Source: Candidatus Caldarchaeum subterraneum (GTDB lineage: Archaea; Thermoproteota; Nitrososphaeria_A; Caldarchaeales; Caldarchaeaceae). Taken from it: a stretch of 64,000 bases of DNA. Positions 4,799 through 46,845 of the stretch are shown here, one piece after another; the stretch's first letter is position 1; each line of letters opens with the position of its first letter. Where the stretch lies: NCBI GenBank assembly GCA_000270325.1, contig BA000048.1, forward strand, positions 1,170,981 through 1,234,980, given 5' to 3'. Under the pieces are notes generated by a model, which worked only from the letters and a program-made list of their open reading frames with translations, had not been told where the DNA came from and made no database searches. The translations under genes were made by a program, and so were the position numbers.

Positions 4799-5736
4799 AG
4801 GTCCTCGTCGCTGGTGAAAAACCTGAGCAAGTCATCACAACAGCCAGCTACGCAAAATCACTCAATCCAGCACAAATCGTCGCAGCAGCCTTCAAACCCT
4901 TAACGGAAAACGAGCTGGCGATGCTCGGCGGAGCAGGAGTTGAAAAACTCATCCACCTACCTGAAAAATATCTAGCGGCTGGAGCGGCGGCCTCTGCAGC
5001 GGCTTTGGCCGAGCTGGTGAAAAAACTCGACCCAAACCTCGTTCTAATCTACGCGTCGAAGAAAGGCGTAGAGATATGCGGTCGATTGGCGCAGCGGCTT
5101 GACGTGGCCTATGCCTCTGAAGCCTTCGCTATCGAGAGAGATGGGAATGGGTTTGTGGCTAAACGCCTTGTGCTGGGCGGTGGATACGTTGCCACTGTCT
5201 CGCTTAACAGCAAACCCGCCTTGGCTTCGGTAAAGGTATCGGCGCCGGAGACGTCTAAGGGCCCGAAGCCTGCTGTGGAGGAGTTTGACCCAAATGTAGT
5301 CGCGCCGGCTGTCGATTTGTTAGAGACCATCAAGCCTGAGAAAACGCGGGTGGACCTTGAGAAGGCTAGTTTGATTGTGTCTGTTGGGCGCGGTTTCAAG
5401 AAAAAGGAGGATTTGTCGCTGGCGGAAGAGCTTGCTAAGCTGATTGGCGCAGAGATTGGATGCAGCAGGCCGATATCCGGTGACCTCAAATGGCTAGAAG
5501 AGGAGCGGCACATAGGATTATCAGGTAAACGTGTAAGACCCAACCTCTACATAGCGCTGGGCATATCGGGGCAGGTGCAGCATCTCGTCGGAATGCGTGA
5601 CAGCAAAACCGTGATAGCAGTCAACACAGACCCCAACGCCCCGATGGCCACGGAATCAGACTACTACTTTGTTGCAGACCTCTACAAAATCCTACCACTT
5701 ACCATCGAAATTCTCAAAAAGAAACTGGGCAGTTAA
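4795..5736 (+). CDS. etfA: electron transfer flavoprotein alpha subunit
   Basis: A 313-residue EtfA. The C-terminal FAD-binding domain is recognisable from SVGRGFKKKEDL, GCSRPISGDLKWL, LYIALGISGQVQHL and AVNTDPNAPM in the family order. It overlaps etfB by four bases and lies three bases ahead of the MobA-like gene, so it sits inside one operon. No acyl-CoA dehydrogenase gene is in the window, so the electron donor is unknown. Confidence 0.95.
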   Translation: MKVLVAGEKPEQVITTASYAKSLNPAQIVAAAFKPLTENELAMLGGAGVEKLIHLPEKYLAAGAAASAAALAELVKKLDPNLVLIYASKKGVEICGRLAQRLDVAYASEAFAIERDGNGFVAKRLVLGGGYVATVSLNSKPALASVKVSAPETSKGPKPAVEEFDPNVVAPAVDLLETIKPEKTRVDLEKASLIVSVGRGFKKKEDLSLAEELAKLIGAEIGCSRPISGDLKWLEEERHIGLSGKRVRPNLYIALGISGQVQHLVGMRDSKTVIAVNTDPNAPMATESDYYFVADLYKILPLTIEILKKKLGS

Positions 5737-5739
5737 AAC

Positions 5740-6348
5740 ATGCACTACCTGACAACCGTTCTCGCTAACCAAGACCCAGGCGGACGCAGAGGCCTCATAA
5801 AAATAAACAAGAGGCCCATGATAGAATATGTGCTCGACGCTGTTCCTGAAGACACCGATGAAATCGTCATCATGACTCGGCAGGCGTCTCTAAGCGAGTA
5901 CAGGGGCATAGCCGAGAACTATGGGGCGGAGCTGTGGGACGCTGGACCAGAGGAGCTCGATATCCGTTTCCATCTTGAGCAGCTTTTCCGCGAGAAATCA
6001 TGCGAAGCCGTGGTCGCCCTCTCCTGTGACACACCGCTCATCAACAGAGAGGTGGTTATGTTTCTACGAGATGTTGTCACACGCTTTTCAGCGGGGATAC
6101 CGCGGCCTGTTTTTGACAAGCCCGAGTTCACCCCCGCCTCTTACCGCGTCAAGCCATTTCTCCAAGCCATGGACCAGAATCCGGAGCTAAAGATGGTCGA
6201 CCTCGTGAAACATGTGGGAAACGTTTTATACATATCTCTTCAGAGCTTCAAAATTTTTGACGACAAGCTTCGTTTCCTCGTCAAGGTTCAAACACAGTCG
6301 GATGTCAGGAAAGCTGCTCAGATTCTTCAGTCGGCTACGGGGGAGTAG
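5740..6348 (+). CDS. MobA-like nucleotidyltransferase
   Basis: A 202-residue protein with a nucleotidyltransferase Rossmann fold resembling molybdenum cofactor guanylyltransferase. The N-terminal nucleotide loop is altered: the usual LAGGxSxRMG reads LANQDPGGRRG, followed by the conserved lysine-containing IKINKRPMIEYV. The metal-binding acidic motif appears as ALSCDTPLI near residues 88-96. Molybdoenzymes are encoded at 7.9 kb and 40.9-44.5 kb, so a molybdopterin role is plausible. The modified loop means another NTP-dependent activation is possible. Confidence 0.6.
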   Translation: MHYLTTVLANQDPGGRRGLIKINKRPMIEYVLDAVPEDTDEIVIMTRQASLSEYRGIAENYGAELWDAGPEELDIRFHLEQLFREKSCEAVVALSCDTPLINREVVMFLRDVVTRFSAGIPRPVFDKPEFTPASYRVKPFLQAMDQNPELKMVDLVKHVGNVLYISLQSFKIFDDKLRFLVKVQTQSDVRKAAQILQSATGE

Positions 6349-6350
6349 GT

Positions 6351-7331
6351 TTGCTTCCTCTGGGCAAGCTTCCGGAGAAGGTTTTGAAGGATGTTGTTCT
6401 GCGTAGAGTGGGTGCGAGACGGAAAGACGTTGTTCTCTGGCCAAGTTTCGGCGAAGACGCGGGAGCAGTCAAATCGTCGAAGGACATCTACATAGTTTCC
6501 ATGGACCCGATCACCGGCTCTAAAAGCTTCGTCGGCTGGCTCGCTGTCCACGCTTCGGCTAACGATGTCGCAGTATGCGGTGGAAGACCACAGTGGTTCT
6601 CCTCCACCATACTGTTGCCGAGAGGCAGCACAGCAGCCGACCTCAAGAAAATCGTCGACCAGATACATCTCGCATGTAGACGGATGGATGTGGCTGTTGT
6701 GACTGGCCACTCGGAGGTCGCCCCCTTCGTCTCATCACCAGTCGTCATAGGCCACATGACAGGCAAACTAGTTGCGCCAACCCCCGTGACCACCAGCGGA
6801 GCAAAACCCGGCGACGAAATTCTTTTAGTAAAGTCTCCGGGGCTTGAAGGCGCAGCAATATTATCCGCTGACTTTGCTGACATACTTAGACGTAAAGGCT
6901 TCACAGAGAGGGAGCTGAGGGTGGGTTCTCTGCTTATCAAAAAGACATCAGTCGTTGAGGAGGCGTTGTCTCTGGCTTCGACGGGTGTAAATTGTATGCA
7001 TGACCCGACGGAGGGAGGTCTTCTCGGCGGATTGTATGAAGTTGCCGAAGCCGCTGGTGTTGGATTCGAAGTCGACAGGTCGAGGGTGCCGATTCATCCT
7101 CTCGTGCAGCGTATCTGCGAAAAAATGGATATTGACCCTCTCAGGCTAATAAGCTCTGGAGCACTGATAGCCACCGCCCCACGTTTCAGCAGCAGAGTTC
7201 TTGCAAAGGTAGGCGGACGGATTATAGGAAAAATACTTTCCCGTAAACAGGGGATGAGGGTAATCGAGGACGGCCGTGAGGAGAGAATCAAGGGCCCCAT
7301 ACAGGACGAGCTGTGGAGAATCATCTCCTAA
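6351..7331 (+). CDS. HypE/AIR synthase-related protein
   Basis: A 326-residue AIR synthase-related (PurM-like) ATP-binding protein, starting at TTG two bases after the previous stop. The N-terminal half carries GEDAGAVK (an ATP/Mg2+ motif), SANDVAVCGGRP and the GHSEV strand, and the C-terminal half has HDPTEGGLLGGLYEVAEAAG. The order is as in HypE. True HypE ends with a short tail whose cysteine is carbamoylated for hydrogenase cyanide ligands, but this protein ends in DELWRIIS without a terminal cysteine. No other hydrogenase gene is seen, so a hydrogenase role is doubtful. Confidence 0.75.
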   Translation: MLPLGKLPEKVLKDVVLRRVGARRKDVVLWPSFGEDAGAVKSSKDIYIVSMDPITGSKSFVGWLAVHASANDVAVCGGRPQWFSSTILLPRGSTAADLKKIVDQIHLACRRMDVAVVTGHSEVAPFVSSPVVIGHMTGKLVAPTPVTTSGAKPGDEILLVKSPGLEGAAILSADFADILRRKGFTERELRVGSLLIKKTSVVEEALSLASTGVNCMHDPTEGGLLGGLYEVAEAAGVGFEVDRSRVPIHPLVQRICEKMDIDPLRLISSGALIATAPRFSSRVLAKVGGRIIGKILSRKQGMRVIEDGREERIKGPIQDELWRIIS

Positions 7332-38581: not shown

Positions 38582-39535
38582 TTGTTTCGCGGGTTTATAG
38601 CTGGCGATTCAGCGGATAAATTCATGTATGTTGAGGATGTGAGGCTAGTGAAGGGATGTTCGGCGGCGGAGCTTCTGCGGATGATGGGGCGGATGGGTGG
38701 ATTTATGGGGGCTCATCTTGCCGAGGCGTATCAGCTTCTCAGGGATGTATTGTCTGACCGAGAGTGTCTGAGGATGGTTTCTTTCACGGGCAACCTTGTG
38801 GCAACAGGCCTGCGGGGTGTTCTTGTGGAGATGCTGCGGAGAAAATGGTTCGACTTGGTTTTTACAACATGCGGGGCCGTTGACCACGACATCGCCCGCA
38901 CAAGGTCGCGTTATAGGATTGGCAGTTTTGACGCCGATGACTGGGAGCTCGCCGAGAAAAACATCCACCGACTCGGCAACGTCTACATCGACCAGCAAAG
39001 CTATGGATTGGTGGTTGAGCGTGAGGTCGCGGAACTCGTTGGAGAGCTTGGCCATGGAGCTGAACTGCCCGTGTATGAGGTTTTGTGGAGAGTCGGTGAG
39101 AAGCTTGGCTCAGAAAATTCATGGCTTTACTGGTGTCACAGACACAAGGTCCCCGTCATGGTTCCGGGAATTTTCGACGGCGCCTTTGGATACCAGTTGT
39201 GGCTACGCGGAAAGATTAGGCTAAGCTATGAAAAAGACCAAAACCTTCTCAACGAGGTGATGTGGAGCAGCCGCAGGAAAGCGGGGCTCATAATCGGCGG
39301 CGGAATATCGAAACATCACCTGCTCTGGTGGTCTCAGTTCGGGGGAGAAGGGCTTGAAGCAGCGGTTTACATCTCAACAGCCGATGAATATGATGGCAGT
39401 TTGAGCGGGGCGAGGCCCCGAGAAGCCGTTACATGGCATAAAATCTCTTCAAAGGCGCGACATGTCTTCGTGAAAACAGATGCGACGGTTGCACTGCCCA
39501 TTCTTGTGCTGGCGCTACTGGAGGAACTCGAGTAG
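38582..39535 (+). CDS. dys: deoxyhypusine synthase
   Basis: A 317-residue enzyme that transfers the aminobutyl group of spermidine to a lysine of aIF5A. Recognisable parts are TGNLVATGLRG, TTCGAVDHDIAR, NSWLYWCHRHKVPVMVPGIFDGA and the active-site segment EAVTWHKISSKA, whose lysine forms the enzyme intermediate. It starts with TTG; GAGAGGG lies about ten bases ahead. A DOHH-like HEAT protein gene at 44.5 kb may act on the same substrate. Confidence 0.93.
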   Translation: MFRGFIAGDSADKFMYVEDVRLVKGCSAAELLRMMGRMGGFMGAHLAEAYQLLRDVLSDRECLRMVSFTGNLVATGLRGVLVEMLRRKWFDLVFTTCGAVDHDIARTRSRYRIGSFDADDWELAEKNIHRLGNVYIDQQSYGLVVEREVAELVGELGHGAELPVYEVLWRVGEKLGSENSWLYWCHRHKVPVMVPGIFDGAFGYQLWLRGKIRLSYEKDQNLLNEVMWSSRRKAGLIIGGGISKHHLLWWSQFGGEGLEAAVYISTADEYDGSLSGARPREAVTWHKISSKARHVFVKTDATVALPILVLALLEELE

Positions 39536-44501: not shown

Positions 44502-45020
44502 TCAGCCCCCTGTCTTGCGTGCGAACTCTGCAGCCTTCTCGTCCACTGATTGTGTGAAAAGCCTTCTGCAGAACTCTATGTTGCTTAGCGCTATGATGGC
44601 GGAGTCAACCACTTCAGGAGCCTCGTCCTTCAAAGCTTCGAGTAGGTCTGGCACTGGGTCTGTTCTCCCTATTACCCCAAGGGCTATGGCTGATTCGTGG
44701 CGGACTATGGGGTGCGGATCCCTCTTCACAGACTCAACAAGGTAGGGAATCGCCTCACGGTAACCCAGCTGCCCGAGACTATAAGCGGCCTCATGACGCA
44801 CAATAGGGTTATCGTCATGCAGCAGCACCTCGGCGAGGTCTTGAATATAATCTCTGCCGCCTATCTCAGCCAAAATACATGTAGCCCTGGCGCGGATAAC
44901 AAAGTCATCACTCTTCAACAGAGACCTGAAATATTCGGCATCCTTCTCCCTAAACTTTTCCTCCATCTCGAAAAATATCTTCAAACGCTCCTCCGGAATC
45001 TTCACAGCCCTAAGTTCCAA
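44502..45020 (-). CDS. HEAT-repeat protein resembling half of deoxyhypusine hydroxylase
   Basis: A 172-residue HEAT/PBS-lyase-repeat protein starting at TTG. About four helical repeats are visible. Two carry His-Glu pairs, VRHEAAYSLGQLG (H76-E77) and VRHESAIALGVIG (H108-E109), spaced 32 residues apart. Deoxyhypusine hydroxylase binds its di-iron centre with four such HE motifs in two four-repeat halves, so this protein looks like one half and might work as a dimer. A scaffold role like other HEAT proteins remains possible. It lies upstream of the molybdenum hydroxylase operon on the same strand. Confidence 0.75.
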   Translation of the reverse strand: MELRAVKIPEERLKIFFEMEEKFREKDAEYFRSLLKSDDFVIRARATCILAEIGGRDYIQDLAEVLLHDDNPIVRHEAAYSLGQLGYREAIPYLVESVKRDPHPIVRHESAIALGVIGRTDPVPDLLEALKDEAPEVVDSAIIALSNIEFCRRLFTQSVDEKAAEFARKTGG

Positions 45021-45349: not shown

Positions 45350-45883
45350 ATGAGGGTGGGAAAAGTTTTTGACCTGTTTTTCGCCGCGGGCGTGGTGTGG
45401 CTGCGGGACGAAACTGCTGATGATTTTGTGGAAAAAATGCGTAGCGTTGTGGATGATGCTCAGGTATTCGACGCAGACTCTATTCTTGACTGGGATGTTT
45501 TCGACGCCGCGCTTATGAACGCTGTTTTAGCCGTGAAGGCCTCTAGGCAGAGGGCGCGCAGCCTCTCAACCGAGGTGTTGATGCGGCTTGCCGCCACCAC
45601 GCAAATCAGGGAGGCAATCGCCAAGGTTGGGCTAAAGCCCGGCAGTATGCGAGCGGTTTTTCTGGTGGTGGGAAGCTCTAGGGAACAGGTCGAGGAGAAG
45701 GGTGCCAAGGTACTGTCGCTTGCGGGTGGTGGGGAGACGGATCTGCCGAAAAATCCTGACCAGACGCGGTTCGAGGAACTCTACGGAGTTTCTGAAAAAG
45801 TTTACAAATCTGTCCAAGCAAAAACAAGCATAGAAGCGCTCAAGCTGGCTATCATGCAGAAAATAGCCTCAACCCTCATCTAA
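45350..45883 (+). CDS. cgi121: KEOPS complex subunit Cgi121
   Basis: A 177-residue protein recognised as Cgi121 by FDADSILDWDVFDAALMNAVLA, the LSTEVLMRLAATTQIREAIAKVGL helix pair and MRAVFLVVG. KEOPS makes the t6A modification of tRNA together with TsaC/Sua5, which is encoded tail to tail directly next to it. ATG 45350 is chosen because GGTGG lies at 45340-45344; GTG 45341 is an alternative. Confidence 0.87.
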   Translation: MRVGKVFDLFFAAGVVWLRDETADDFVEKMRSVVDDAQVFDADSILDWDVFDAALMNAVLAVKASRQRARSLSTEVLMRLAATTQIREAIAKVGLKPGSMRAVFLVVGSSREQVEEKGAKVLSLAGGGETDLPKNPDQTRFEELYGVSEKVYKSVQAKTSIEALKLAIMQKIASTLI

Positions 45884-46487
45884 GCCCAATCCTTTTCTCA
45901 ATCTCTTCACGGGATAATACGCCCTCACGAAGAACAACCACTTGGCCATCCTGAATTTTCACAACGGTGGATGGCAATAGATGATGTGTTCGTCCCGCGT
46001 CCACGACAACATCCACCTTTTCGAGAACGCTTGAAGGTATCTGGTCGATCGTTGTCGCCGATGGTTCGTCTGATATGTTCGCGCTTGTGCCAACCAGGGG
46101 CCTATGGGCCTTCTGCATTATCAGGAGAGGAACAACATGTGCGGGCATTCTCACCCCAACTGTCTTCTCACCGGCGGTAACGAGCTCGGGCAGCTCAGGT
46201 TTCTTCGCCATGACGATTGTCACTGCCCCAGGCCAAAGACGTATGGCTGCCTCCAGCTCCTCTTCAGTCGGCACCGCAACCTCATGGAGCTGGTCAAAGT
46301 CGCTTACTAGAACAGGGGCGGGCTTTTTTTCCCGTCTCTTAGCATGAATAACCCTTTCGACGGCCTCGATTTTGAAGGGGTCGCAGCCGATGCCATAAAC
46401 AGTATCTGTCGGGTAAACAATTACTCCACCGCGTTTAACTGCTTCGGCCGCGGAGTTTATTGCTTCAAGTAAACCATGTTTACGCGT
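45876..46487 (-). CDS. tsaC: threonylcarbamoyl-AMP synthase (TsaC/Sua5/YrdC), apparent ACG start
   Basis: A YrdC-domain protein of about 203 residues making threonylcarbamoyl-AMP for tRNA t6A. The first standard start codon (GTG 46274) would drop the family core. The frame continues upstream through KRGGVIVYPTDTVYGIGCD and IHAKRREKKPAPVLVSD, both conserved YrdC segments, and contains no ATG, GTG or TTG before an in-frame TGA at 46493-46491. The best candidate start is ACG at 46487, just after GGTGGTGA (46498-46491) and inside the end of the preceding gene. SANISDEPSA and VVVDAGRTHHLLPSTVV follow. A sequencing error at the start is the alternative. Confidence 0.85.
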   Translation of the reverse strand, partial: TRKHGLLEAINSAAEAVKRGGVIVYPTDTVYGIGCDPFKIEAVERVIHAKRREKKPAPVLVSDFDQLHEVAVPTEEELEAAIRLWPGAVTIVMAKKPELPELVTAGEKTVGVRMPAHVVPLLIMQKAHRPLVGTSANISDEPSATTIDQIPSSVLEKVDVVVDAGRTHHLLPSTVVKIQDGQVVVLREGVLSREEIEKRIGLR

Positions 46488-46845
46488 TTTTCACCACCGC
46501 TATCTTGCTCAAATGGTTCATGTGGCAGGGTGGCCCGTCCTCGAGCCAATTGTAGTAGGGGTAGTTGCATGGACCGCTTGGGCCCACGTTTAGGCATCTG
46601 ACCTTGACGCCTCGTGACATAGTCTGAAATTTTTCATCCCCGCAGTAGGGACACTTCATCCCCTCTTTCCAGAGATATACATGGCTCTCCTCAGGATTAC
46701 CGCATGCGACCCACACCCCAAGCTCGTGACCCTTGGGACAACGCGGCTTATCCAGCCTCAGCAACAAATATGGAACAGACTCGCCGCAGACATCGCATTT
46801 CAAGAAATCCACCTCTATTTCGAACCATACACCGGTGTAAGCCAT
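46480..46845 (-). CDS. cysteine-rich zinc-binding protein of unknown function
   Basis: A 121-residue protein with metal-binding pairs CDVC, CPKGH, a single ACG, CPYCGDE, then CLNVGPSGPC and PCHMNH. The spacing suggests two or more zinc ribbons. I do not recognise the family. The ATG at 46845 overlaps the end of the BCAT gene by 31 bases; a GTG at 46812 would avoid the overlap. Its stop overlaps the start of tsaC. Confidence 0.7.
   Translation of the reverse strand: MAYTGVWFEIEVDFLKCDVCGESVPYLLLRLDKPRCPKGHELGVWVACGNPEESHVYLWKEGMKCPYCGDEKFQTMSRGVKVRCLNVGPSGPCNYPYYNWLEDGPPCHMNHLSKIAVVKNA

Follow-up and report, generated by a model that had tools for sequence, protein, structure and literature searches.

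Introduction

Deoxyhypusine hydroxylase (DOHH) is a symmetrical dyad in which two four-repeat arms jointly hold two irons (PMC8153317, PMC3306375). Its iron ligands are H56, H89, E90, H207, H240 and E241, and deoxyhypusine is contacted by the four glutamates of the His-Glu (HE) motifs and by two glycines (PMC9117371, which prints G65 where the human DOHH sequence gives G63). A sequence-only reading of the locus studied here had taken DOHH to be generally regarded as eukaryotic, in agreement with published statements that no archaeal DOHH is known (PMC6105217, PMC5178350, PMC8153317, PMC3306375). Such statements go back to 2012 and grant that hypusine is made in archaea. Native aIF5A of Sulfolobus solfataricus (S. 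solfataricus) carries hypusine, and deoxyhypusine synthase (DHS) alone yields only deoxyhypusine; YfcM (the EF-P hydroxylase) and the bifunctional DHS of Trichomonas are named in the same paper (PMC6105217). The phrases "archaeal DOHH" and "archaeal deoxyhypusine hydroxylase" occurred in no paper that we found, in a search that excluded preprints and covered few subscription papers, such that prior notice is possible. Likewise, we found no report on whether aIF5A is hypusinated in Caldarchaeum or in ammonia-oxidising archaea.

Results

A half-size HEAT gene with two HE motifs

We analysed a 64,000-nucleotide stretch (hereafter the window) of the Candidatus Caldarchaeum subterraneum genome, which consists of one contig of 1,680,938 bp. 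The features relevant to this work are as follows (residues are numbered from the TTG at 45020):

44502-45005, minus strand: half-size DOHH-like HEAT protein, 167 aa, GTG start inferred from orthologues
44502-45020, minus strand: the same frame from the alternative TTG start at 45020, 172 codons, 172 aa
44790-44795, minus strand: His76-Glu77 codons (71-72 from the GTG), equivalent to human DOHH H56-E57 and H207-E208
44694-44699, minus strand: His108-Glu109 codons (103-104 from the GTG), equivalent to human DOHH H89-E90 and H240-E241
44505-44525, minus strand: C-terminal tail FARKTGG, low pLDDT in the model
38582-39535, plus strand: deoxyhypusine synthase DHS1, one of two DHS genes in the Caldarchaeum genome

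The sequence-only reading had assigned a HEAT protein to 44502-45020 without stating its strand. The open reading frame is indeed there, encoding 172 aa from the TTG, and it lies on the minus strand; the plus-strand frame of this segment is closed. Its start had to be moved, since in the orthologues the initiating Met falls on the position of V6 (MKIP.. or MIPEER..; ATG in L006, L007 and L040), from which we infer that the gene probably starts at GTG 45005 and that the protein comprises 167 aa. Pfam assigned HEAT_2 (6.4e-27) and HEAT_PBS (3.6e-15) to the product, and neither Pfam nor NCBIfam returned anything beyond HEAT repeats. Translation and Pfam together bear out the earlier placement of H76-E77 and H108-E109, 32 residues apart, within these repeats. 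The nearest named records, both from Candidatus Caldarchaeum, share 93% (L005) and 81% (L006) protein identity, as measured by a single-sequence search whose reach is limited to close relatives.

Of the distinct orthologues, 49/53 terminate exactly in F..xTGG-COOH, despite the low model confidence for this tail. The conserved C-terminal Gly-Gly recalls ubiquitin-like tails, and its role is unexplained.

The half-size protein carries the residue set of one DOHH arm

When the protein was compared with sequences in the PDB, human DOHH (4d4z) was its best natural match (1.1e-24), ranking below designed alphaRep/HEAT proteins only. By BLASTP, the one archaeal chain aligned with both halves of human DOHH (39% identity over 132 residues and 35% over 116), with the HE motifs in register, and a profile of the half-size family matched them about equally well, at 65.8 and 67.3 bits (the human query sequence was checked against 4d4z, residues 1-289 being identical). 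The profiles of PBS-lyase HEAT families, in contrast, remained far below their curated cut-offs: 35 vs 300 bits for NblB, 24 vs 330 for CpcE and 16 vs 220 for CpcF. A high raw profile or fold score cannot in itself be taken as proof of kinship with DOHH, and we rejected it as such, because designed HEAT repeats outscore DOHH. For the same reason we relied on residue-level conservation: it is the HE, G and Q residues that separate DOHH from idealised HEAT repeats, whereas overall sequence and fold scores do not.

At this level, the claim that the protein matches one half of the DOHH di-iron ligand set held firmly. H76, H108 and E109 align with the iron ligands of both arms (H56/H89/E90 and H207/H240/E241), and E77, G83 and E109 with the deoxyhypusine-binding residues E57, G63 and E90 (E208, G214 and E241). 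Across 26 aligned orthologues H76, E77, G83, H108 and E109, i.e., the counterparts of every iron-binding and substrate-contacting residue in one arm of DOHH, were invariant, as were Q84 (human Q64/Q215) and R43 (R24/R175). The two halves of human DOHH are identical to each other in 53 columns, 16 of which are invariant in the 26 family members, including H56/H207, E57/E208, H89/H240, E90/E241, G63/G214 and Q64/Q215.

The two HE motifs also keep a fixed spacing (HE-30-HE), which was found in 53/53 distinct proteins of the half-size family (hereafter family A; all fetched loci), down to 35% identity. Ordinary HEAT proteins, when aligned to the same profile, did not show the arrangement; the few HE pairs in aligned 830-aa HEAT proteins belong to the sequence HEAAHQ, apparently an HExxH motif as in M1-type peptidases. 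Given its presence throughout family A and in 30/30 sequences of a paralogous family (family B, below), and its absence from ordinary HEAT proteins, the HE pair is, as judged from these alignments, not a product of chance. The observation that would have reduced the protein to an ordinary scaffold, namely HE pairs unconserved in its close relatives, was thus not made.

A predicted fold resembling a DOHH arm

A monomer model generated with AF2 from a four-sequence alignment reached a pLDDT of 83.6 (>90 around the HE motifs) and contained eleven helices, with the HE motifs occupying corresponding positions in helices 67-80 and 99-112. Searching with this model in Foldseek returned 4d4z as the top natural structure (E 2.5e-4, TM 0.62 by query; rmsd 2.6 Å over 132 columns, 36% identity), followed by proteasome HEAT subunits as the next natural class (6e-3). 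As modelled, the protein has the same fold as a DOHH arm.

Deoxyhypusine synthase and the surrounding genes

The DHS reported 5 kb from the half-size gene was likewise verified: DHS1 is identified by PF01916 (6.9e-88) and NCBIfam NF002294 (374 bits, over the cut-off of 350) and lies 4,967 bp away. DHS1 is also 5 kb from the half-size gene in genome G041, and in G128, a genome of the same taxonomic family (f1), the half-size gene is contiguous with two DHS genes on L040:

4126-5049, plus strand: DHS1
5032-6066, minus strand: DHS2
6142-6642, plus strand: half-size gene

Here, the half-size gene is divergent from DHS2, with 75 bp between them. Given this arrangement, the link to DHS is stronger than from the window alone. 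A general DHS neighbourhood was considered and rejected, as the proximity holds in Caldarchaeum species (5 kb) and in G128 and not in family f3 or the other lineages examined, in which the neighbours of the half-size gene include Rad50/Mre11-like genes (assigned by eye). In f3, the two DHS genes are paired tail to tail and the half-size gene is located elsewhere.

Many relatives carry two DHS genes, often arranged tail-to-tail. For the second DHS of L040 the best-scoring match is NF002006-type DHS; what it contributes alongside the first is open.

The Caldarchaeum genome encodes, in addition to its two DHS genes, a single aIF5A, whose loop (KSKPGKHGSAK) contains the modifiable Lys, and, for spermidine, AdoMetDC and SpeE, whose genes neighbour each other. 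With all of these present, the genome encodes what precedes hydroxylation in the pathway. Within the window, a xanthine-dehydrogenase-type operon lies 39 bp downstream of the half-size gene, an arrangement common to L005 and L006 and absent from more distant relatives. A Sua5/TsaC-like gene (45876-46490, minus strand) has a frame that is open further upstream than the listed open reading frame, with no ATG, GTG or TTG there.

Distribution of the family and association with COX1

Our genome searches were centred on the phylum of the window and sampled 398 genomes across it. Matches at 1e-6 were obtained in 92/398 genomes, of which 81 were counted as carrying half-size family A, the remainder being long HEAT proteins. 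Family A occurs in the window's own family (f1) and in f3, f7 (nearly all genomes), f41, f45, f58 and f59; by inference, f7, f41 and f45 are ammonia-oxidising lineages, and the family is close to universal among the genomes of such lineages. Within its own order it is present in 6/44 genomes. The orthologue of G385 (L074, 2774-3645) appears split over two frames, reflecting either a frameshift or an error in sequencing. When 80 genomes without family A, mostly COX1-bearing and including f21 (presumed Sulfolobaceae), were searched with the profile, only HEAT proteins of 830-950 aa were obtained, and no f21 genome contained the half-size gene in this search. Considering that Sulfolobus has hypusine, another archaeal route must exist, and the half-size DOHH-like protein is not the sole archaeal solution.

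COX1 was present in 80/81 family-A genomes vs 74/317 others (Fisher 3e-39, uncorrected for relatedness), the only family-A genome lacking it being 81% complete. This phylum-wide association is fitting for an O2-dependent enzyme. Within the window's own order it was not significant (5/6 vs 19/38, p = 0.20), and several COX1-positive relatives there lack the half-size gene.

Beyond cellular genomes, phages gave no match to the half-size protein, plasmids gave seven (31-43% identity, mostly annotated as HEAT or hypothetical; the HE pair was not checked), and viral contigs gave one weak, pattern-selected match. The latter, on the phage-like contig L087 (2868-3296), is a 142-aa HEAT protein with two VRHE motifs, whose gene lies between a portal-like gene and one resembling an S49-type protease (read by eye).

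A paralogous half-size family

A second family of half-size HEAT proteins, family B (L059, L060, L061, L063, L070 and L088-L117), was found in 30/398 genomes, in every case alongside family A; family B was not found in the Caldarchaeum genome. Its 30 distinct sequences all show HE-30-HE, the family has a 9-residue insertion, and its top PDB match is DOHH, above the designed proteins. In five family-B sequences aligned in detail, the Gly of the first motif was absent from 4/5 and the Gln from 5/5. Family B is a candidate for a second enzyme or a heterodimer partner. In a 20-row tree the human DOHH halves paired with each other (99/99) on the A side of the A/B split (100/100); the branches of this tree are long and its root is unknown.

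Discussion

Taken together, these results establish a real, conserved half-size DOHH-like family. The protein does not satisfy the definition of DOHH as a single chain: instead of eight HEAT repeats in two symmetrical arms it has 167 aa, corresponding to roughly one arm and an additional N-terminal hairpin, and instead of four HE motifs per chain it has two, which are invariant and would amount to four only in an inferred homodimer. Since the one-chain, four-HE definition fails, we call it a variant rather than DOHH proper, one that probably works like DOHH, its function being inferred. On the reading that we favour, it resembles DOHH as it was before its internal duplication.

We therefore favour, with moderate confidence, the reading that the gene encodes a DOHH-like, homodimeric, O2-dependent aIF5A hydroxylase, in which the dimer, the iron, the O2 chemistry, the activity and the substrate are all inferred. 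For O2-dependent hydroxylation of deoxyhypusine in IF5A, which defines DOHH, the evidence here is merely indirect and comes from the DHS, aIF5A and spermidine genes and from the association with COX1. Four HEAT hairpins would correspond to one DOHH arm with one His/His/Glu iron site (H76, H108, E109), and the same chain would bear one set of substrate residues (E77, G83, E109). Two chains may then pair about a twofold axis, like the two arms within a eukaryotic DOHH chain, and together build a di-iron centre that activates O2; in DOHH, this centre is marked by a stable peroxo intermediate. With DHS1 supplying deoxyhypusine-aIF5A as the putative substrate, this centre would hydroxylate deoxyhypusine on aIF5A once DHS has acted.

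A DOHH-type HE-motif iron oxygenase could instead act on a substrate other than aIF5A, such as a protein, a polyamine or RNA, which we regard as a possibility to be kept in mind, if an unlikely one. The occurrence of hypusine in Sulfolobus without the half-size gene implies that aIF5A hydroxylation can be separate from it (PMC6105217), and a phage-like contig encodes another double-VRHE HEAT protein. Moreover, family B retains the HE spacing but has no Gln and, for the most part, no substrate-binding Gly, and hence the HE-30-HE scaffold has diversified. Family A, however, retains the E/G/E set with which DOHH binds its substrate, and its gene adjoins two DHS genes in G128.

That the protein is merely a non-catalytic HEAT scaffold, or that its HE pairs are structural, seems improbable to us: both pairs are invariant at fixed spacing in all 53 sequences and absent from ordinary HEAT proteins, even if HEAT_PBS proteins are commonly scaffolds or binders and designed HEAT repeats outscore DOHH overall. 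We give still less credence to a mononuclear 2-His-1-carboxylate iron enzyme acting as a monomer, or to an obligate heterodimer with another half. A single chain does provide the two His and the Glu that make up an iron site, but DOHH uses both arms (PMC8153317); similarly, a second HE half (family B) exists in many f7 genomes, but the Caldarchaeum genome is without family B and hence without a second half of that kind.

Extending the homodimeric hydroxylase to a whole group, we consider it an even chance that deoxyhypusine hydroxylation in Nitrososphaeria-type archaea is performed by a half-size DOHH acting as a homodimer, as would be expected of the enzyme before gene duplication and fusion gave rise to its eukaryotic form. 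If true, archaea would have their first known DOHH, and it would become possible to reconstruct how the di-iron site of eukaryotes arose. For one large group of archaea, the family supplies a concrete candidate for the final step of hypusine synthesis, so far unaccounted for, and a prediction of the archaea in which hypusine is to be expected. As a single-armed, ancestor-like counterpart of a di-iron enzyme with two arms, it would also make symmetric active-site assembly directly testable.

Among known systems, eukaryotic DOHH (human 4d4z/4d50; yeast Lia1) shares with the half-size protein its HEAT hairpins, an HE pair per arm (HE....LGQ, VRHE....LG), the iron-ligand and substrate-residue set of each arm, and the presence of DHS and IF5A in the same genome. 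It differs in having two arms, 302 aa and four HE motifs, as opposed to one arm, 167 aa and two, and in an HE spacing of 33 residues rather than 32, while the extra N-terminal hairpin, the C-terminal F..xTGG tail and the archaeal host are found on the half-size side only. YfcM and the bifunctional DHS of Trichomonas perform a similar task, completing the modification of a translation factor, and are, to our knowledge, not HEAT proteins with HE pairs. PBS-lyase-type HEAT proteins (CpcE/CpcF, NblB, YibA) have the HEAT_PBS fold in common with the half-size protein, with weak profile matches and a structural match weaker than that of DOHH. Designed alphaRep/HEAT proteins reach the top raw sequence and fold scores as idealised HEAT consensus repeats, yet they are artificial and the HE pair is absent from the aligned repeats shown.
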